Origin: Chloroflexota bacterium
GTDB lineage: Bacteria; Chloroflexota; Anaerolineae; UBA1429
Assembly (NCBI GenBank): GCA_019873625.1
Contig: JAIOAW010000017.1
Coordinates: 1 to 51,670, forward strand
Direction of reading: 5' to 3'
Length of the DNA: 51,670 bases
Below the pieces are notes generated by a model, which was given only the letters and a program-made list of their open reading frames with translations, searched no databases and was not told where the DNA came from. Position numbers and translations under genes: made by a program. Numbering within the stretch: the stretch's first letter is position 1; every line of letters begins with the position of its first letter. Shown piece after piece: positions 5,891 through 39,985 of this stretch.

Positions 5891-6565
5891 TCAGGCGCCC
5901 AAAAGGGTGCGCAGGCCGCCGACAAGGGCCATCTCGGCCAGGGCGCTCAACAGGCCCAGGGCCAGGGGCAGCCCGAAGGCGCCCCATCGCCCACGGCGCC
6001 GCGCCTCGCCCAAGAGCACGGCCCAAAGGGGCGCGTTGACGAGAGCAAGCGTCCCACAGGCGGCGAGGGCGACGGCCCAAAAGAAGCACCCATAGGGCGC
6101 GCTGCGCCACCCCCATAGGAGCGCGCCCCAAGCGATGTTCGCGGCCAAGGGCACCCACAGGCGCCCCGGAGAGGCGCGATGCGCCTCGGCCTCGGCCGCG
6201 CGGATGGATTGGCTCACGATATAAAGGAGCGTCCCTACGGCGAAGCCCATCCCCAGCCCCGTGGCCAACCGCAGGGCGTTCGAGGGAGGGTAAAGGAACG
6301 GCCTTGACCGCCAAAAACTCCCCAGCGAGTTGACCCCATCCACCAGCCAAGCCGCCCCCAGGAGGCCCATCAGCGCGGCGAGCCGGCCATCCAGCCCGCC
6401 CGTGCGCCCCCTATCCACCGCCCAAAGGATCAGGAAGGTGAGCGCAGCCCCCGTAAAAAGCCCCGTGCAGCGCGCACAGAGCGGCAAAGGCAAGCCGCCA
6501 AAGGTCAGGCTGTGCTCGGGCAACTGGTGGCATAGGCCGCTCAAAAGAAACCAGGCGATCCGCAC
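5891..6565 (-). CDS. DUF2085-type membrane protein
   Basis: A 224-residue membrane protein matching DUF2085: an early CHQLPEHS, then LCARCTGL at about 30-37, the family's Cys-containing signature, and a PFLYPPSNALRLATG-like segment. Five to six hydrophobic helices follow. The start is GTG at 6565 with AAAGGTAG upstream. The conserved CHQ/CARC residues could bind a metal or form a disulfide, but no function is established for the family. The gene is separated by 120 bases from the DUF4013 gene on the same strand, and it is divergent from the catabolic operon to its right. Confidence 0.82.
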   Translation of the reverse strand: MRIAWFLLSGLCHQLPEHSLTFGGLPLPLCARCTGLFTGAALTFLILWAVDRGRTGGLDGRLAALMGLLGAAWLVDGVNSLGSFWRSRPFLYPPSNALRLATGLGMGFAVGTLLYIVSQSIRAAEAEAHRASPGRLWVPLAANIAWGALLWGWRSAPYGCFFWAVALAACGTLALVNAPLWAVLLGEARRRGRWGAFGLPLALGLLSALAEMALVGGLRTLLGA

Positions 6566-16575: not shown

Positions 16576-17895
16576 TTAGAGCGCAAAGCGCTCCCAATGC
16601 ACGCGCGCCCGAGGCACGCCGAGTTCTCGAAGGGCGCGCCGCACGAGGGCCATCATCGGCGGGGGACCGCAGAGGTACACATCGCACGAGGCCACGTCGG
16701 GCACGAGGCGGGCGATTCGTTCTCGGTCAATGAATCCCTTTTCGCCCGCCCAATGGGGTTCTTCGCTGAGGACGTGATGCACGATTAGGCCATGCTCGCG
16801 CGCCAGGGCGTCCAGTTCGCCGTAAAAAGCGATGGCATCGAGGGTGCGGTTCCCGTAGAGGAGGGTAACGCGTTTGCCCTGCCGCGTAAAGTGCTCGGCG
16901 AGCGACCGGAGGGGAGTGATCCCGATGCCGCCGGCGATCAAAAGCACACGATCGCGGCGGCACAGGCGCGGCGTCATCGCGCCGTGGGGGCCGTCAATGA
17001 TCACGGGCGTGCCCGGCTGGAGCGAACGGACCTTGCGCGTGAAGTCGCCCACCGCTTTGATGCTCAACCGCAGATACTGGCCATTCGGCGCGCAAGAAAG
17101 GGAAAAGGGGTGAGCCTCGCACCAAAAGCCGCGCTGCAAAAAGCGCACGATGAGGAACTGCCCCGCCTCGATGGGGAAGCGTTCCAGCCGATGCCCCGTG
17201 ATGTAGACCGAATGGACATCGAGCGTCTCGGGGACGATGCGTTCTACGCGCGTGCGGAAGCGCGCGTACTGATACAGGGGCCTCGCGAAGCGAAAGAGGA
17301 TGACGTTCGCCACGGCAAAGGCCCACAGGATAAGCCAATACGTGCGAAAGGCCCCTTGGCCGATGAGGTCTCCTCCGACGAGGATTTGATGAAAAAAGGC
17401 CAGCGCCAGGGCGGCGTAGGCCGTTATATGCAGGGCATACCATTGCTCATAGGTCAAGCGCCTGCGCAAGAAGCCGAGCGATAATAAAATAATCAGGATA
17501 AAGAGGATAAGGCCAATTTCGGCGAGGAGCACCGTGGGGTAGGTGCGGAAGAAAAAGAGCACCTGGTCGAATATAGCGAGGCCGTTCAGCGCAGCGTGGG
17601 CGGCATTGGTCAGCACGGGGTGGACGAGCGCGAGCGTAAGGAGCGCGAAGCCGTTCCAGTGGTGAACGCGCGAAAGGCGATCTAGCCCGAAGCCCCGTTC
17701 CACCCACAAGACGCGCCCGATGAGGATGATCTGCGTCAGGAGCGTATAGCCGGCGAGGAGGCCCGCCAGGCGCGCCCCAGCCAAGAGGGCCGCTGCACCG
17801 CCGGCGCCCAGGAGGGCGCCCGAATGCCTCGCCCATAGGGCGATGATAGCCGCGAGGTTGGCGAGATACAGGGCGATGGGAAATGCTTTGCGCAT
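16576..17895 (-). CDS. Ferric-reductase-like transmembrane flavoprotein
   Basis: A 439-residue protein with an N-terminal membrane domain of about six helices and a C-terminal FAD/NAD(P)H reductase domain. The membrane part has paired His typical of heme ligands (RVHHWNGFALLTLALVHPVL and WYALHITAYAALALAFFHQIL). The reductase part shows HPFSLS (FAD), GGIGITPLRSL (NAD(P) phosphate) and LCGPPPMMALVRRAL (C-terminal nucleotide site). It should pass electrons from cytoplasmic NAD(P)H across the membrane to an acceptor such as ferric iron or oxygen. Start ATG at 17895 with AAAGGAT upstream. A promoter lies at 17945-17973. No ferredoxin domain is attached. The physiological acceptor is not indicated by neighbours. 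Confidence 0.9.
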   Translation of the reverse strand: MRKAFPIALYLANLAAIIALWARHSGALLGAGGAAALLAGARLAGLLAGYTLLTQIILIGRVLWVERGFGLDRLSRVHHWNGFALLTLALVHPVLTNAAHAALNGLAIFDQVLFFFRTYPTVLLAEIGLILFILIILLSLGFLRRRLTYEQWYALHITAYAALALAFFHQILVGGDLIGQGAFRTYWLILWAFAVANVILFRFARPLYQYARFRTRVERIVPETLDVHSVYITGHRLERFPIEAGQFLIVRFLQRGFWCEAHPFSLSCAPNGQYLRLSIKAVGDFTRKVRSLQPGTPVIIDGPHGAMTPRLCRRDRVLLIAGGIGITPLRSLAEHFTRQGKRVTLLYGNRTLDAIAFYGELDALAREHGLIVHHVLSEEPHWAGEKGFIDRERIARLVPDVASCDVYLCGPPPMMALVRRALRELGVPRARVHWERFAL

Positions 17896-17979: not shown

Positions 17980-18235
17980 CGCGCCCCTTCCGCCTCGCGC
18001 GTGGGCCAGGAGGCCCCCTTCTCTTTTATTTTTGGCGTGCTGAAGCCTTGGCTTCAGCAAGTATCGCGCCCTCGCCCTAGCCCTCTCCCGCCCCAGCGGG
18101 AGAGGGAAAAAGAGCACGAGGCCCCTACCGTGTGGCGTTCCCTCTCCCACGTCGAGTGGGAGAGGGTCAGGGTGAGGGGGAGCACGCCCCTTCCGCCTCG
18201 CGCACACGGGCCGGGAGGCCCGCGCTCCGAAATTG
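17980..18235. repeat. Cluster of REP-like palindromes and a 19-bp direct repeat
   Basis: This 473-base gene-free gap (17896-18368) holds several palindromes. A 10-bp-arm hairpin starting TGCTGAAGCC lies at 18038-18059. Two stems of the CCCTCTCCC type lie at 18081-18106 and about 18148-18175, the second followed by CAGGGTGAGGG. The direct repeat CGCCCCTTCCGCCTCGCGC occurs near 17986 and again near 18185, each followed by a GGGCC-GGAGGCCC hairpin. The same elements recur at 30.4 and 39.9 kb. Confidence 0.75.
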
Positions 18236-18264
18236 CAGCCGCAAACACACATCCCCTTCTCATC

Positions 18265-18301
18265 ACATCTTAACAAAAGGATAACATTTCCCTGCTATAC
18301 T
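18265..18301 (+). promoter_or_regulatory. Promoter P1 with 11-bp-spaced repeats, before the secreted protein gene
   Basis: An extended -10 box TGCTATACT (18293-18301) with no good -35 at 17 bases. In its place TAACA occurs at 18271-18275 and 18282-18286, 11 bases apart, with a CATCACATC segment one turn further upstream. The layout matches P2 at 19312-19353 and is typical of promoters activated by OmpR-type regulators. Confidence 0.55.
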
Positions 18302-18368
18302 GAGCGTGGCTTATAAACAAGGCCGGGGGATGGTCCCACGGCTATCACCGAAGAGAAAGGAGTTTGTT

Positions 18369-19217
18369 ATGCGTCACTTATTGAAACGAGGGTGGATCAT
18401 CCTCTTAGTCGGGGCGCTTCTCGTCGCAGGAGGCCTGACGGTGTGGGCACAAGGGAATAATAATGATGAAAACACCAACACCACGCCGTGGCCGGGCAGA
18501 GGAGGCATTGTCGCCCGCTGCGACGTCTCCGCCGAGGCTATGCAAGCGCTCAACCAAAAGATGCAAGCGATTTTAGCGGAAAAGTTGGGCGTGAGCGTCG
18601 AGGAACTGCAATCGGCCTGTGGGCCGAGGGGATATCTGCCGGGTTTGGCGGCCAAGGGGAACGTGACCCCAGAGGCCTGGCGCGAGGCGATGCAGAGCGC
18701 CCGTGAAGAAGCGTTGAAGGCGGCCGTGAAAGACGGCACTTTGACCCAGGAGCAGGCCGATTGCCTGGCCCAGCCTAGGGCGCTCATCGGGGGTGGCCGT
18801 ATGGCCTTCCGCGCCCCGAATATGCCCCTTTACGATTGGCTCGATATCCCAGCGGATACCTGGCGTGAGGCCCAGCAATCGGCCCTGGCCAGCGCCTTGG
18901 GTATGACGAAAGAGGAGTTGACCGAGGCCCTTCAAGCGGGCAAGACCGTCCGTGAGATCATCGAGGAAAAGGATCTGACGGTCGAAAAGGTGCAAGAGGC
19001 GATGCAGGCCGCCTTTGAGGAGGCCGTCAAGCAGGCGCAGGCGGAGGGGCGCATCACCGCTGCGCAGGCCGAAAAACTCCTCAAACTGAAGGTCGGCGCG
19101 GTGCCCGGTTTCGGCAGGGGCGACTTTGAAGGGCGACCGATGATGCGCGGCCGCGGTGGGATGATGCGCGGCGGGTTCTGGCCCAAGGCCACGCCAACCC
19201 CCACCACGAGTTCGTAA
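18369..19217 (+). CDS. Secreted helical protein with Gly/Arg/Met-rich tail
   Basis: A 282-residue exported protein of unknown function. Residues 1-28 are a signal peptide (KR, hydrophobic core, then VWAQG). Two related helical units follow, at about 53-133 and 160-240. Each has a W-REA-(M/Q)-QSA segment, an LG(V/M)(S/T)xEEL segment and an end like GTLTQEQADCL or GRITAAQAEKL, so the protein looks internally duplicated. Three Cys lie in the first unit. Residues 246-271 are rich in Gly, Arg and Met (RPMMRGRGGMMRGGFW), then a Thr/Pro tail. Similar Chloroflexota proteins sit next to MacAB-like pumps. The ATG at 18369 has AAAGGAG upstream. It has its own promoter P1 and terminator. It may bind metal or a toxic compound in the envelope (inference). 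Confidence 0.82.
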   Translation: MRHLLKRGWIILLVGALLVAGGLTVWAQGNNNDENTNTTPWPGRGGIVARCDVSAEAMQALNQKMQAILAEKLGVSVEELQSACGPRGYLPGLAAKGNVTPEAWREAMQSAREEALKAAVKDGTLTQEQADCLAQPRALIGGGRMAFRAPNMPLYDWLDIPADTWREAQQSALASALGMTKEELTEALQAGKTVREIIEEKDLTVEKVQEAMQAAFEEAVKQAQAEGRITAAQAEKLLKLKVGAVPGFGRGDFEGRPMMRGRGGMMRGGFWPKATPTPTTSS

Positions 19218-19259
19218 GCGATCTATCTCCCGATCCCTCCTGGCAGGCGACACAGGCCC

Positions 19260-19296
19260 GATTCTCCGCCGCAACGTTGCGGCGGAGAATCTTTTT
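19260..19296 (+). terminator. Rho-independent terminator after the secreted protein gene
   Basis: Perfect 16-bp inverted repeat (19260-19275 with 19276-19291) followed by TTTTT. Confidence 0.92.
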
Positions 19297-19311
19297 CGCT
19301 TTGGGTAAATG

Positions 19312-19353
19312 TCATCATCTCTTCATCATCTCTTCACAATTTTCTGCTACACT
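19312..19353 (+). promoter_or_regulatory. Promoter P2 with tandem 11-bp repeats, before the efflux operon
   Basis: TCATCATCTCT is repeated exactly at 19312-19322 and 19323-19333. A third, degenerate unit TCACAATTTTC (19334-19344) abuts an extended -10 box TGCTACACT (19345-19353). No independent -35 is seen. Direct repeats with an 11-bp period just upstream of the -10 are the classic binding pattern of OmpR/PhoB-family activators. Confidence 0.65.
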
Positions 19354-19389: not shown

Positions 19390-20979
19390 ATGCAGCACAA
19401 AAGAAGACGGGTCGTGTGGATTGTCGTGGCGATTCTCCTGGTAGGGGCGGCGGCGGGCGGCTATGCCTACTATCGCCAAACCAAGGCGACCAAGGCCCAG
19501 GCGCAAGCCACCCAGCAGACGCTCCAAACAGCCCGCGTGCGGCGGGGTGAGATCGTCCTTTCGGCCACGGGCGCCGGAAGCGTCGTGGCCGCGCGCGAGA
19601 TGGCCTTGGCCTTTGGTGCGGGGGGCGAACTTCTCGAATTGAAGGTGGGCGTGGGCGATGCGGTCAAGCAGGGCGATGTGCTCGCCCGCATAGATGACTC
19701 AGCCGCCCAAAAGGCCGTGGCCAGCGCCGAACAGGCCCTCGTCCGGGCCAAGGCCGATTTGCAAACGGCGCAACAGAATCACGCCGACCTCCTCGCGCCG
19801 CCCACGGAGGCCGAACTCCTCGCGGCACAAGCCGCCGTCGAGACGGCCCAAAAGAACCTCGATGACCTCCTCAAAGGCGCCACTCCGGCCGAAATCGCCC
19901 AGGCCGAGGCCAACTTGGCCAGCGCTGAGCAGGCATATCAAGAGGCCGTGGCGGGGCCATCGGAGGAGGATATTCGCAAGGCCCAACTCGCGCTGGACCA
20001 AGCCAAAAACAGCCGTTGGTCCACCCAAATGAACCGGGATGCCACCTGCGGCCTGCGCCCCGATTCCTCCGCCTGTGACCAGGCCCAGGCTCAGGTGCTG
20101 AACGCAGAAATCTCGGTGCAATTAGCCGAGATGAACCTGGAGGCTGCCAAAAAGGGCAAGACCCAGGCGGAGATTCAGGCCCTGGCCGCCCAGGTGGCCG
20201 CCGCGCGAGAGACCCTGGCCAAATTGCGCGCCGGCCCCACCCAGGCGGAGATTGACTCGGCCAAGGCGCAGTTGGCCTCTGCGAAGGAGAAACTCGCCGA
20301 TTTGCAGAATGGCCCCACCGCTGAGGAAATCGCCGTCTCTGAGCAAAACGTCCGCAGCGCCGAACTCGCCGTGCAACTGGCGGAGGCGAACCTCGCCGAG
20401 GCCAAAGACGCCCTCGAGCGTTGCACGCTCGTGGCCCCCTTCGATGGGGTAATCACGGCGGTGAACGCCCAAGTGGGCGACACGGTAAGCGCCAATAACG
20501 CCATCTTGACTATGGCCGACCTCAGCCAGGTGGTGCTCGACGTCTACCTCGACGAGACGGATTGGGCGATGGTGAACGTAGGGCACGAGGTGGAAGTAAC
20601 CTTCGACGCCATCCCCGACCAGGTGTTCAAGGGCAAGGTCGTGCGCGTCTCGCCGCAACTCGTCACGGTGAGCGGGGTGAAATCGGTCTATGCGCAGGCC
20701 GTGCTGGATGCAGCCTCTTTTGCCAAACCGCAGAGGCTCCCCGTGGGGTTGAGCGCCACGGTGGATGTCATCGGCGGGCGCGCCACAAACGTCCTCTTGG
20801 TACCGGTGGAAGCCTTACGGGAAATCGGCACGGGGGAATATGCCGTCTTTGTGGTGGAAAACGGTCAACCTAAACTGCGCCCGGTGGAAGTAGGGTTGAT
20901 GGATGCCACCTATGCCGAAATCACGTCGGGCTTGCAGGAGGGTGAACTCGTCAGCACGGGCCTGGTGGAGACGAAATGA
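19390..20979 (+). CDS. HlyD/MacA-type efflux adaptor with long repeat coiled coil
   Basis: Membrane-fusion adaptor of 529 residues that should link an inner-membrane ABC pump to the envelope. It has one N-terminal membrane helix (residues 8-28) and a first lipoyl half ([13 protein letters not shown]...[16 protein letters not shown], 53-104). A very long helical part at 105-345 is made of about six units with a P-T-x-A-E-I-like turn. The second lipoyl half ([20 protein letters not shown], 347-366) and a beta-barrel end follow. An insertion at 216-230 carries C220 and C229, which could form a disulfide. The ATG at 19390 follows AAGGAGAGG. The usual MacA is about 370 residues, so this coiled part is much longer. 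The next gene overlaps the stop by ATGA. Confidence 0.91.
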
Positions 20980-21713
20980 GCGATCAACCCCTCATCGTAA
21001 CGGAAGCGTTGACCAAAATCTACCGTATGGGCCGCGTCGAAGTGCCCGCCTTGCGGGGGATTGACCTGACCGTGGCGGCGGGCGAATTCGTGGCCGTGAT
21101 GGGGCCATCCGGTTCGGGCAAGAGCACGCTGATGAACATCCTCGGCTGCCTAGATCGCCCTACCTCGGGGCGATACATCCTCGATGGGCAGGACGTCTCT
21201 CGCTTGAGCAAGGTGGAATTGGCCGTTATCCGCAACGAGCGGATTGGGTTCGTCTTCCAATCGTTCAACTTATTGCCGCGCACGACCGCGCTCAAGAACG
21301 TGATGCTCCCGCTCATCTACAGCCGCAACCGGCGGCTGAGCCGGGCCGAACGGCGTGACCGCGCCGAGGAACTCCTCACCATGGTGGGCCTGGCCGACCG
21401 TATGCACCACGAACCGCAGGAACTTTCCGGCGGCGAACGCCAACGGGTGGCCATCGCCCGCGCCCTGGTCAATGACCCCGTGCTCATCTTGGCCGATGAG
21501 CCGACGGGCAACCTCGATACGCACGCCGGCCAGGAGATTATGCAAATCTTGGAGGCCCTGAACGCCCAGGGGCGCACCATCGTGATGGTTACGCACGAGC
21601 CGGAGATCGCCATCCACGCGCGCCGCACCATCCACGTGCGCGATGGGCTGATCGAATCGGTGGTGTATAACGGGCACGGCGGCCCCCTGGCCGAAAAGGA
21701 GGAAAGAGAATGA
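20976..21713 (+). CDS. MacB/LolD-type ABC transporter ATP-binding protein
   Basis: A 245-residue ATPase of an ABC export system. All motifs are present: Walker [11 protein letters not shown]-loop [12 protein letters not shown], signature [15 protein letters not shown], Walker [14 protein letters not shown] and the switch VTHEPE. The sequence around Walker A and the [19 protein letters not shown] segment match the MacB/LolD group, which drives mechanical transmission through an FtsX-like permease rather than ordinary transport. It overlaps the adaptor gene by ATGA at its start and the permease gene by ATGA at its end, so the three are translationally coupled. Confidence 0.95.
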
Positions 21714-22945
21714 GTTTTCTCGATCTCGTCCAGGTGGCGGCAGAGGGCCTATCGAACAACAAACTGCGCGCCCTCCTCACGATGCTGGGCGTCATCATCG
21801 GCGTGGCGGCGGTGATCATTATGATGGCCGTCAGCGCGGGCACCGAGGCAGCCATCGCCGAGCGGATCACCAGCCTAGGGGCCAACCTCATCTTTGTGCG
21901 ACCGGCCTTTAGTATGGGGGGCGCGCGGGGCGAACGGATAGCGGCCCGCCCCTCGCTCACCTTCGACGATGCCAAGGCGATTAGCGAGCAGATTTCCCGC
22001 GTCAAGGGCGTTACGGTAGAGCAGAACAGTATGCAGACCGTCAAATACGGCGCGAACACCTTGACGGATATCACCGTCATCGGCACCACGCCCGATTTCC
22101 CCACCGTGCGCGAGGTGCGCGTGGCCGACGGGCGCTTTTTCAACGCGCAAGAGGTGGATCGCGTGGCCAAGGTATGCGTGTTGGGCTATTCCGTCGCCCA
22201 AGAACTCTTTGGCGGTGCTGACCCCATCGGCGAAAAGGTGATGGTGGGCAATACGAAACTCACGGTCATCGGCGTGATGGCCGAACGCGGCACGGTGGGC
22301 AACCAAGATTGGGATGCGCGCGTCTACACGCCCATCACCGTGGTGTTCCAGAAGTTTATGCCCTCACAGTTTGCCCGGGTGATGGGCAACCGCGTGGGGA
22401 TGATTTATGTCCAGGCCGAAAGCCAAGAGGCCATCCCCACAGTCATCACGCAGATTACCTATCTCTTGGCCAAGCGGCACGGCGTGACCGTGGATGAACC
22501 CGATTTCAGCGTGCAAACCCAGCAAGATATCATCAGCGCCCAGCAGGCCACCACAGCGGCCTTCCGCAACTTGCTAGCCTGGGTGGCGGGGGTGTCGCTC
22601 CTCGTGGGGGGCATTGGGATTATGAACATTATGTTGGTGAGCGTGACGGAGCGCACCCGAGAAATCGGCATCCGCCAATCGGTGGGCGCCACGGAGGCCG
22701 ATGTGCGTTGGCAGTTCTTGGCCGAGGCGCTCGTCCTCAGCCTGACGGGTGGGGCCATCGGGGTGCTGGCCGGCGTAGGCGGGGCCTGGGTCTTTGCGCG
22801 CCTGAGCGAGATGCGCACCGTGGTGGTGCCCAATTCCATCGCCCTAGCCTTCGGCTCGGCGGCGGCGGTGGGCATCTTCTTCGGGTTCTACCCGGCAAAC
22901 AAAGCGGCGCGGCTCGATCCCATCGAGGCCCTGCGCCACGAATGA
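21710..22945 (+). CDS. MacB/FtsX-type ABC permease
   Basis: A 411-residue permease with the MacB plan: a first membrane helix after [25 protein letters not shown] (about 15-45), a large external domain of about 230 residues, and three helices at the C-terminus (about 285-400). The last part includes the FtsX signature [27 protein letters not shown] and ends DPIEALRHE. The ATPase is a separate protein, unlike enterobacterial MacB, where both are fused. With the adaptor and ATPase it forms a three-part pump, probably for a lipid-like compound, peptide or drug. The substrate is not known. Confidence 0.94.
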
Positions 22946-22965: not shown

Positions 22966-23631
22966 ATGAAAACGCGTTCCATTGCCCTGTTGGTTATCCT
23001 CGCCCTGGGGATAGCGCTCGCGGGGTGCGCCAAAAAGGAATCCACGGCCAGTGCCCAGGCGGCGGCCCAGCAAGCCCCGACCCTTTCGCCCGTGATGCGC
23101 CTTCTCATCGGCATCTTCCGCCTGGAAGGCACGGCGGATGCCGTAACGCCCGAACAGGCGAAGCAACTCTTGCCCTTGTGGAAGGGTTACCGCGCCCTTT
23201 CGCAGAGCGATAAGGCCGTTCCCGCCGAACTGGAAGGGCTGATCAAACAGATTGAGGAGGCGATGACGCCCTCTCAACGCCAAAAGATCGCGGCGATGAA
23301 CCTCTCCTACGCCGATCTCCAGGCGATTGCCGAAGAACGCGGCATCAACTTGGGCGGGCGTATGGGCGCGGGCGCTGGGCCAATGGCCACGCGCGCGGCG
23401 CAGAGCGGAACCCAGGCTCGCCAAGGGGCAGCCGGGGGGCCGGCCTTTGCGGGGCCGCCTGACGGCGGGATGATGTTCGGCGGGCCGCTGGGCCAGGGCG
23501 GCCAAGGGAGCACCACGTTGAGCGCGGAGGCCGTGGCGACCTTGCGGGCGCGGGCGAGCACGCGGGTGCCCACGGCCCTGCTCGATGCCCTCATCGCGCT
23601 CCTTCAGGAGCGCGCGGGGTTAGGTCAATAG
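22966..23631 (+). CDS. Lipoprotein of unknown function, Gly/Met-rich middle
   Basis: A 221-residue lipoprotein. The signal peptide ends with LAGC, so C21 would carry the lipid anchor. Residues 40-115 are helical (MRLLIGIFRLEGTADAVTPEQAKQLLPLW-like, then LIKQIEEAMTPSQRQKIAAMNLS). This block often recurs in Chloroflexota lipoproteins next to MacAB-like pumps, as I recall. Residues 125-185 are low-complexity Gly/Ala/Pro with GPPDGGMMFGGPLGQGGQG. A final helix covers about 190-218. It follows the permease by 20 bases with AAAAGGAG upstream and belongs to the same operon. A role as an accessory part of the pump or as a sensor partner is possible but not shown. Confidence 0.8.
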   Translation: MKTRSIALLVILALGIALAGCAKKESTASAQAAAQQAPTLSPVMRLLIGIFRLEGTADAVTPEQAKQLLPLWKGYRALSQSDKAVPAELEGLIKQIEEAMTPSQRQKIAAMNLSYADLQAIAEERGINLGGRMGAGAGPMATRAAQSGTQARQGAAGGPAFAGPPDGGMMFGGPLGQGGQGSTTLSAEAVATLRARASTRVPTALLDALIALLQERAGLGQ

Positions 23632-23705: not shown

Positions 23706-24392
23706 ATGCCCAAGACACTGCTCATTGTAGACGATGAGGAACGGCTCCGCGCCCTGTTGCGCGACTATATGGAGCACGAGGGTTTTCGCGTGCTCCTCGC
23801 GGCGGATGGCCGCGAGGCCCTGCGCATTGCCCGGCAAGAAAAGCCAGACCTCATCATCCTTGACCTGATGATGCCCGAGATGGATGGCTGGGAGTTTATG
23901 CGCCGCTACACGCCCGAAGCGCGCACGCCCATCATCATCTTAACGGCGCGTTTGGATGATACCGACAAAGTGCTGGGCCTGGAATTGGGCGCGGATGATT
24001 ACGTGACCAAGCCATTCAGCCCGCGCGTCCTCGCGGCACGCGTGCGGGCCGTGTTGCGGCGGGCCGGCGCCCAGCCGCCCCCGGCGGAGGTGCTGCGCGC
24101 GGCGGATATCGTGTTAGATCGCGCCGCGCACCAGGTTACGGTGGGCGGCCAGCCCGTGTCGCTCACGCCCTCGGAGTTCGATCTCTTGGCAGCGTTGATG
24201 GCCGCGCCGGGGCGGGTGTTCACGCGCCTTGAACTCCTCGAGCGCGTCCAAGGCACCCTGTACGAGGGGTATGAGCGCACCATTGACGTGCATATTCGTA
24301 ACTTGCGCAGCAAGATCGAACCGAACCCCAAAAAGCCCCGCTATATCGAGACGGTGTACGGCGTGGGCTATCGTTTCGCGGCGGAGTCCTAA
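23706..24392 (+). CDS. OmpR/PhoB-family response regulator
   Basis: A 228-residue two-component regulator. The receiver domain (1-120) has DDE near residue 9, the phospho-acceptor D53 in LIILDLMMPEMDG, the Thr in ILTAR and the Lys in DYVTKPFSP. The winged-helix DNA-binding domain (130-228) has LTPSEFDLLAALM and the recognition region YERTIDVHIRNLRSKIE, ending YGVGYRF. The start ATG at 23706 has GGAGGGAG upstream. It is followed by a histidine kinase gene overlapping by one base (TAATG). Its likely targets are promoters P1 and P2, whose 11-bp repeats fit this regulator class. That link is inference. Confidence 0.96.
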   Translation: MPKTLLIVDDEERLRALLRDYMEHEGFRVLLAADGREALRIARQEKPDLIILDLMMPEMDGWEFMRRYTPEARTPIIILTARLDDTDKVLGLELGADDYVTKPFSPRVLAARVRAVLRRAGAQPPPAEVLRAADIVLDRAAHQVTVGGQPVSLTPSEFDLLAALMAAPGRVFTRLELLERVQGTLYEGYERTIDVHIRNLRSKIEPNPKKPRYIETVYGVGYRFAAES

Positions 24393-25759
24393 TGGGCCGA
24401 TCGTTGACCTTCAAACTGGTGATTGCCTTCCTGTTGGTGAGCCTGGTGGGCACGGCCGTTACGGCGGGCTATGTGGCCTACATCACGACGGATCGCTTCA
24501 GCCGCTACGTGGCCGAACAATCGCGCCTGCGTACGGCCGAACGATGGGCCGACTATTACCGCATCACGGGGAGTTGGGAAGGCGTGCGTGAGGCGATGCC
24601 TATGGAGGAACTCTCCCCTCCTGGGGGTATGCCGATGCCCAATATGCCGATGGCCTCCGTGGCCTTGGCAGATCGCCAAGGGCGCATCGTCGTGGCGGGG
24701 GCGGGGTTCGCGCTGGATCAAAAGGTGCCTGCGCACCTCCTCAGAGCGGCTACACCCATCACCGTGAATGGCCAAGTGGTGGGGTATATGCTCCATATGA
24801 ACATCCGCATACGCCCCGATGCGCCGAGGCTCAACTTCCTTATGGGGTTCTACCGCGTGCTCGCCGTGGGGAGTTTGGTGGCTACAGCCGTAGCCCTGAT
24901 GCTGGGGGTGTTCCTCGCCCGGTCTTTGACGCGCCCCCTGCGCGAACTCACCGCCGCCACCCAGGCTATGGCCAGGGGCGAATTGGCCCAACAGATCCCC
25001 GTGCGCTCTAGCGATGAACTGGGCGAACTGGCCGCCTCGTTCAACCGTATGAGCGCCGAATTGGTGCGCGCCCAAGAGGCGCGCCGCCAAATGACGGCAG
25101 ATATCGCCCACGAACTGCGCACGCCGCTCAGCCTCATTTTGGGGCATGCCGAGGCCCTGGCCGATGGCGTCTTGCCTCCTACGCCGCAAACCTTTGCCAT
25201 CATCTACGATGAGGCCCAGCGCTTGACGCGCCTGGTGGACGATTTACGGACGCTTTCGCTTTCGGAGGCAGGGGAACTCGCCCTGCAGATTGCCCCATTG
25301 CGGCCGGAGGAAATCGTCGAACGCGCGGCCGCCGCCCATCAACCCCAGGCCGCGGCGCGGCGCGTCGAAATCGTTACGGACGTGGCGCCCGATCTCCCCG
25401 ATGTGGAAGGGGATTTCGACCGCGTGGCCCAAGTGCTCGATAACCTCTTGGCAAATGCTCTGCGCCTCAGCCCGGAGGGGTCCACGGTGGCGTTGCGCGC
25501 CGAGGCGTTTGGGCGGTTTGTGCGTTTTAGCGTGCGCGACCAAGGGCCAGGCCTGGCGCCGGAGGATCAACAGCGCGTGTTCGACCGCTTTTACCGCACC
25601 GATCGCTCCCGCAGCCGCGATCTGGGCGGATCGGGGCTGGGGCTGGCCATTGCGCGGCAACTGATCCTCCTGCAAAAAGGGGAGATCGGCGTCGAATCTA
25701 CCCTTGGGGAGGGGGCTACGTTCTGGTTCACCCTGCCCGTTCACCAGGCCGAGGCTTAG
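24392..25759 (+). CDS. Membrane sensor histidine kinase with Met-rich sensor segment
   Basis: A 455-residue kinase of the BaeS-like type. It has a membrane helix at about 8-30, an external domain of about 120 residues, a second helix at about 153-178, a HAMP domain (178-230), HisKA with H240 in DIAHELRTPLS, and a complete ATPase domain (N-box DNLLANALRLSP, G1 DQGPGLAPED, G2 GGSGLGLAIA). The external domain has a stretch at 69-87 with six Met in MxM and similar spacing (MPMEE, GGMPMPNMPM). Met-rich spacing of this sort binds Cu(I) or Ag(I) in other proteins, so metal sensing is possible (inference). The regulator gene directly upstream is its partner. Confidence 0.93.
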   Translation: MGRSLTFKLVIAFLLVSLVGTAVTAGYVAYITTDRFSRYVAEQSRLRTAERWADYYRITGSWEGVREAMPMEELSPPGGMPMPNMPMASVALADRQGRIVVAGAGFALDQKVPAHLLRAATPITVNGQVVGYMLHMNIRIRPDAPRLNFLMGFYRVLAVGSLVATAVALMLGVFLARSLTRPLRELTAATQAMARGELAQQIPVRSSDELGELAASFNRMSAELVRAQEARRQMTADIAHELRTPLSLILGHAEALADGVLPPTPQTFAIIYDEAQRLTRLVDDLRTLSLSEAGELALQIAPLRPEEIVERAAAAHQPQAAARRVEIVTDVAPDLPDVEGDFDRVAQVLDNLLANALRLSPEGSTVALRAEAFGRFVRFSVRDQGPGLAPEDQQRVFDRFYRTDRSRSRDLGGSGLGLAIARQLILLQKGEIGVESTLGEGATFWFTLPVHQAEA

Positions 25760-39839: not shown

Positions 39840-39985
39840 CCGATGGAGCGCGGGCCTCTCTCGCACCGAAAGCATAGGCACGCTAGCGCGTGCCCCTGCT
39901 GAAGCCGAGGCTTCAGCACGCCATAGCCGGAGCGCTTTTATCCCCTCTCCCGCTGGGGCGGGAGAGGGCTAGGGTGAGGGTCTTA
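39840..39985. repeat. REP-like palindrome cluster
   Basis: In the 306-base gap 39825-40130 a TGCTGAAGCC hairpin (39897-39906 with 39909-39918, loop GA) is followed by an 11-bp stem of the CCCTCTCCCGC type (39943-39953 with 39958-39968). GGGTGAGGG comes after it. The second stem is the exact reverse of the one at 18081-18106. GGAGCGCGGGCCTC near 39845 matches the third part of the family. Confidence 0.75.

Follow-up and report, generated by a model that had tools for sequence, protein, structure and literature searches.

The locus described here raises the question of whether two neighbouring promoters, P1 before the gene for a secreted protein and P2 before an efflux pump operon, are controlled together and, if so, by which regulator. 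It lies in a window of 51,670 nucleotides (the whole stretch of DNA that was analysed), on contig 17 of a 2.76-Mb Chloroflexota genome. All of the genes that follow P1 and P2 are on the plus strand. The open reading frame after P1 (18369-19217) encodes the secreted helical-repeat protein (SEC), which forms a single-gene unit and for which no Pfam or NCBIfam family scored above its cut-off. In the alignment of its homologues, the family shows the repeat motif LGLT-EL---L-aGKTLAEIA--KGVD ... GRITQ-QADWML and tails that are rich in Gly, Met and Arg. A ferric-reductase-like flavocytochrome gene (16576-17892, minus strand) is divergent from P1, and no box of its own was seen before it. Between SEC and the pump operon there is an intrinsic terminator (19260-19291, plus strand; a 14-bp stem that is followed by T5, folding z-score -4.7), and hence the co-expression of SEC and the pump needs two sites, as was observed. 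P2 is followed by a HlyD/MacA-type pump adaptor (19390-20979; Pfam HlyD_D23 and HlyD_3, NCBIfam RND_mfp above its cut-off), a MacB-type ABC ATPase (20976-21713; Pfam ABC_tran, with MacB as the top NCBIfam model, below its cut-off), a MacB-type FtsX permease (21710-22945; Pfam MacB_PCD and FtsX), a small putative lipoprotein (22966-23631), whose homologues stand beside the pump or the regulator in four related loci (L138, L141, L197 and L201), an OmpR/PhoB-class response regulator (23706-24392; Pfam Response_reg and Trans_reg_C) and a BaeS-like sensor histidine kinase (24392-25759; Pfam HAMP, HisKA and HATPase_c, with BaeS_SmeS as the top NCBIfam model, below its cut-off). The adaptor and the ATPase, the ATPase and the permease, and the regulator and the kinase share one to four bases, and the terminator scan gave no same-strand terminator-like site between the lipoprotein and the regulator. 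Because of this close packing and the missing terminator, P2 probably transcribes the regulator as well, and the pump, the regulator and the kinase are predicted to form a self-activating operon.

Both promoters were found to have an extended -10, TGCTATACT at 18293-18301 in P1 and TGCTACACT at 19345-19353 in P2 (both plus strand), and the promoter scan revealed a sigma-70 site that includes a -35 at neither of them, which agrees with the first-pass annotation of this DNA on both points. The place of the -35 is occupied by an operator of 11-bp direct repeats of the type TTMAYM. In P1, the operator (18248-18291, plus strand) consists of four units, CACATC-CCCTT, CTCATC-ACATC, TTAACA-AAAGG and ATAACA-TTTCC, which start at 18248, 18259, 18270 and 18281 and are followed by a single C and the extended -10, the whole spanning 18248-18301. 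The P2 operator (19311-19343, plus strand) has three clear units, GTCATC-ATCTC, TTCATC-ATCTC and TTCACA-ATTTT, with starts at 19311, 19322 and 19333, which are again followed by a C and the extended -10 (19311-19353 in total); position 19300, where a fourth unit would be expected in the 54-position span of 19300-19353, is without a match. The first base of the last unit lies 12 bp before the TG in both promoters, and the same offset and the same occupation of the -35 place were found in the relatives. The first-pass annotation had placed the 11-base units of the two promoters in register. The repeats are indeed real and are, by a large distance, the top two sites in the window, but the P2 units had been read one base off-frame relative to P1 (33, 22 and 11 bp before the TG in P2 as opposed to 23 and 12 bp in P1). 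Its list for P1 had two of the units and missed the two upstream ones at 18248 and 18259, but its main point is affected by neither slip. When two units and the extended -10 were scored, P1 and P2 each obtained 18 of 20, while the next site in the 51.7 kb (both strands) obtained 15. With a 54-position matrix that was derived from the relatives only, P2 scored 44.3, P1 33.8 and the next non-regulon site in the window 8.9, although this ranking is partly circular because the seed pattern came from P1 and P2, which does not affect the seed-free test described below. As a site, P1 is weaker than P2.

The relatives were picked by their homology to the secreted protein only, and a homologue was present in 46 of 60 genomes. 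A score of at least 16 was found upstream of 15 of the 36 genes of the SEC family compared to one of 271 further genes from these loci and none of 180 shuffled regions, and about half of the SEC upstream regions were without a clear box. One example of a relative's box is TTCATCAAATC-TTCACACCCTTC-TGATACAAT in L144. In the seed-free dyad test, in which every trinucleotide pair was examined at spacings of 4-24 (86,016 tests, Bonferroni correction), the significant dyads in the SEC-selected relatives were TCA-11-TCA (Bonferroni 2.7e-4), TCT-11-TCT, TCT-16-ACA and ACA-12-TAT, which correspond to the unit, to its recurrence every 11 bp and to its constant distance from the -10. In 504 kb of the protein-selected loci, 11 unit pairs were spaced at 11 bp compared to 0-4 at any other spacing, and the extended -10 stood at offset 12 in five of six cases. 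When 39 boxes were stacked, a conserved A was also seen with the same period in the units at -22 and -11 (32/38 and 32/39), which are located further upstream and had no part in the selection of the boxes. These two conserved upstream units indicate that a full operator is made of four, a number that would be right for two dimers. Direct repeats with a period near 11 bp, as in the operators of OmpR/PhoB-class regulators, were thus found in the 11-bp peak of the protein-selected loci, in the dyad test and in the matrix; together with the position over the -35, this bears out the design that was first proposed for P1 and P2. As regards functionless low-complexity or microsatellite-like DNA, P2 does contain a perfect short tandem (the 11-bp array at 19312-19336 was rated 100% by TRF), but the units diverge in sequence while the TCA, the period of 11 bp and the offset of 12 bp are retained in different families of a class, and we give almost no credence to this origin of the repeats.

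The genes that follow the box were also similar among the genomes. The strict pattern occurred at 11 sites in 396 genomes compared to none for the reversed controls, and all 11 precede a gene for SEC, the pump, a response regulator or a Met/Gly-rich membrane protein (in detail, the SEC family, the pump ATPase, the adaptor in the window, the regulator and Met/Gly-rich membrane proteins). When one mismatch was allowed, 31 sites were found in the 60 relatives compared to two for the reversed controls, which added the DUF4405 and DUF2202 proteins; the unrelated genes among these sites are likely to be due to chance. Four loci (L124, L138, L141 and L161) have a box before SEC and another before the pump, as in the window. 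Within the same family, boxes were found before DUF4405-regulator-kinase operons (L229 and L249), before an adaptor that is 48% identical (L244), before DUF2202 proteins (L231 and L241) and before further secreted proteins. The first-pass annotation had suggested that the secreted protein and the pump are one regulon, and this is well supported by the recurrence of the box before SEC, pump genes and regulator orthologues in many relatives. Its proposed check, conservation in the relatives that keep the genes, had a positive outcome: the repeat recurs, and with it the spacing of 11 bp and the distance of 12 bp to the extended -10. In a search extended to other phyla, 80 loci with relatives of the regulator, most of them from outside the group, yielded only two AT-rich, chance-like matches, both in one locus. 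Small Met/Gly-rich membrane proteins stand behind the box in L191, L192, L195 and L168; the L168 protein has a Pfam SHOCT domain, the C-termini of those of L191 and L195 are similar to it and that of L192 is zinc-ribbon-like.

The statements on the whole host genome rest on pattern and model searches, the model having been built from the boxes of 37 relatives with the window left out. Only three sites had E<=10 in the 2.76 Mb: P2 was the top site (1.3e-7), followed by a site before a DUF4405 gene on contig 28 (6e-4) and by P1 as the third (0.066), although the values for P1 and P2 depend in part on the original pattern, which was derived from them. The contig 28 box (L154, 7007-7060, minus strand) precedes a DUF4405 membrane protein of about 110 aa, and in the relatives, the DUF4405 gene is followed by a regulator and a kinase. 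A further site that adjoins another regulator (C14:31486) was set aside with a long-matrix score of 9.4. The modest genome-wide value of P1 could mean that only P2 is real and that P1 is a chance or decayed resemblance at an ordinary extended -10 promoter. When the two upstream units were added, however, the score of P1 rose from 22.9 to 33.8, while that of the next site in the window fell from 17.7 to 8.9. Moreover, the SEC gene of L125, which belongs to the same family, is preceded at the corresponding place by TTAACA-TTCTG-GTAACA, and boxes that mix TTCAxx and TAACA units, like the inner units of P1, were found in L131, L138 and L143. We therefore regard it as quite unlikely that P1 is accidental. 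The mixed boxes also make it plausible that one regulator can take both types of unit.

It remains to be asked which regulator binds. The first-pass annotation was right that an OmpR-class regulator is encoded in the locus, but its physical linkage does not by itself name the binder. In the SEC loci of the relatives, linkage to a response regulator did not predict the box (Fisher p 0.17-0.30), which would be expected if the regulator acts in trans. Autoregulated OmpR-class systems usually carry their own box before the regulator gene. Here, the box precedes orthologous regulator genes in six loci (L193, L194, L199, L205, L217 and L223), and those of L193 and L194 are 73% and 61% identical to the regulator of the window. 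The nearest named relatives of the latter are in Chloroflexota genomes, and in the tree, it groups with the box-linked regulators, with PhoB outside. The boxes before the orthologues and the exclusion of the PhoB paralogue support the prediction that the 23706-24392 protein is the binder of both operators.

The PhoB paralogue deserves closer attention because the sites of PhoB-class proteins are likewise built of 11-bp repeats, and P1 and P2 could be Pho boxes that are bound under phosphate starvation. The PhoB on contig 20, which was identified from the sequences and the layout, adjoins PhoR, PstS, PstC and PstA and is 50% identical to the regulator of the window, and the inner units of P1, TTAACA and ATAACA, resemble GTTAAC. 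However, the genome's own Pho box (L156, about 6322-6406, minus strand, contig 20) has four TGTTAAC-like 11-bp units before pstS and scored -1.1 with the box matrix as opposed to 44.2 for P2 and 22.9 for P1, which makes a Pho site unlikely at P1 and P2. The pst-pho contig region gave no match in the box search, and the boxes of the relatives precede pump, SEC and response regulator genes rather than pst genes. The recognition-helix regions also differ, with GYERTIDVHI(R/K)NLR in the box-linked regulators and GGTRTVDVHIRWLR in PhoB, and the regulator of the window reached 224.5 bits with the NCBIfam PhoB model, below the cut-off of 296.2. Control of P1 and P2 by PhoB is thus highly improbable. 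The pstS box likewise lies 12 bp from an extended -10 (TGGTAAGAT), which means that within one genome two OmpR-class paralogues keep the architecture of 11-bp repeats and 12 bp to the extended -10, whereas their unit sequences differ. A second possibility is that the box is that of a different member of the regulator's subfamily, or that several paralogues share it, the linked regulator being one binder among them. Many relatives have two or three response regulators at 50-60% identity, some of which have a box of their own (G005 and G020), and the recognition helix is nearly invariant across the subfamily. Since several relatives have two or three such close paralogues, the binder could differ between species. 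In the host genome, by contrast, one member of the subfamily was found, the next full-length homologue being PhoB at 50%, which leaves the contig 17 regulator as the only subfamily candidate there, and a different or shared binder appears unlikely.

Taken together, the sequence evidence makes it very probable that the promoters P1 and P2 depend on an activator and serve a single small regulon under the predicted binder encoded at 23706-24392. The phosphorylated regulator would most likely occupy the tandem units of 11 bp in a head-to-tail arrangement of one or two dimers, stand in the place of the -35 and recruit RNA polymerase to the extended -10. P1 would then express the secreted helical-repeat protein, and P2 the MacAB-type pump, the lipoprotein, the regulator and the kinase in a self-activating circuit, with the DUF4405 membrane protein as a further putative target on another contig. 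We infer activation rather than repression, as well as the dependence on phosphorylation; an operator that covers the -35 place and the known binding to 11-nt repeats make activation together with the extended -10 most likely. The secreted protein, the multidrug-type ABC pump and the membrane and redox-like proteins suggest that the stimulus is envelope stress. Copper or silver sensing, considered because of Met-rich stretches in the kinase loop and the secreted protein, is not supported: the number of Met in the sensor loop varied from 0 to 12 and was unconserved among 34 kinases.

The core Bae regulon consists of spy, mdtA, acrD and the mdtABCDbaeSR operon (PMC3160322). As in the BaeSR system of enterobacteria, the window combines a secreted protein with its own promoter and a pump operon that ends in two-component genes, both predicted to be under an OmpR-class regulator; this layout is seen in the boxes at both promoters of the window and in the relatives, and the top NCBIfam match of the kinase is BaeS. 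On the other hand, the pump is of the MacAB ABC type rather than an RND pump, the secreted protein has no Pfam or NCBIfam match to Spy, and the kinase and the regulator reached 263.1 of 500 bits and 198.6 of 380 bits of the BaeS and BaeR cut-offs, respectively. The locus resembles the Bae regulon in the way it works, but the NCBIfam cut-offs do not place it there. In the HssRS-HrtAB heme response of Firmicutes, an ABC efflux pump is controlled by an OmpR-class regulator that acts through a direct repeat in the pump promoter (PMC3968170, PMC6305404). The window resembles this system in having such a regulator and a direct repeat at the promoter of an ABC efflux pump, a likeness of architecture that carries no suggestion of heme as the signal. 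To our knowledge, HrtAB has neither a HlyD adaptor nor a secreted partner, in which it differs from the locus in the window. Regulators of the OmpR/PhoB class bind head to tail to direct repeats of 11 nt, and the Pho box unit of S. coelicolor is GTTCACC (PMC4415409). The MtrA, PhoR and CopR sites of C. glutamicum also have an 11-bp period, with an (A/G)TAACAATttn repeat for MtrA and a 9+2 repeat for CopR (PMC3353115). The box shares at least two direct repeats with an 11-bp period with the Pho boxes of PhoB/PhoP and with the MtrA and CopR sites but differs from them in its unit (TTCAYM/TTCACA), its four-unit operator and its target genes; moreover, the regulator of the window reached 227 bits with the NCBIfam MtrA model, below the cut-off of 300.

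No prior description of this regulon or its box was found in the open-access papers that were searched, and the regulon is ordinary in kind, with an apparently undescribed content. We know of hardly any transcription factor binding sites in this mostly uncultured bacterial group. It is likely that an undescribed envelope-stress regulon extends across this Chloroflexota class, in which an OmpR-class regulator whose operator has four TTCAYM units would control itself, a MacAB-type pump, the secreted helical-repeat family, DUF4405 and DUF2202 proteins and Met/Gly-rich membrane proteins. If this is true, the regulon would be the first functional context for those protein families of unknown function. 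The defined operator and gene set make it a testable regulon and offer a class of function for the secreted repeat protein, DUF4405 and DUF2202. Besides the operators, the window also has an intergenic palindromic repeat with CACCCTGACCCTCTCCC, with copies at 18073-18089, 18158-18174 and 39960-39976; there were four matches to this repeat in the window compared to 0.31 expected.
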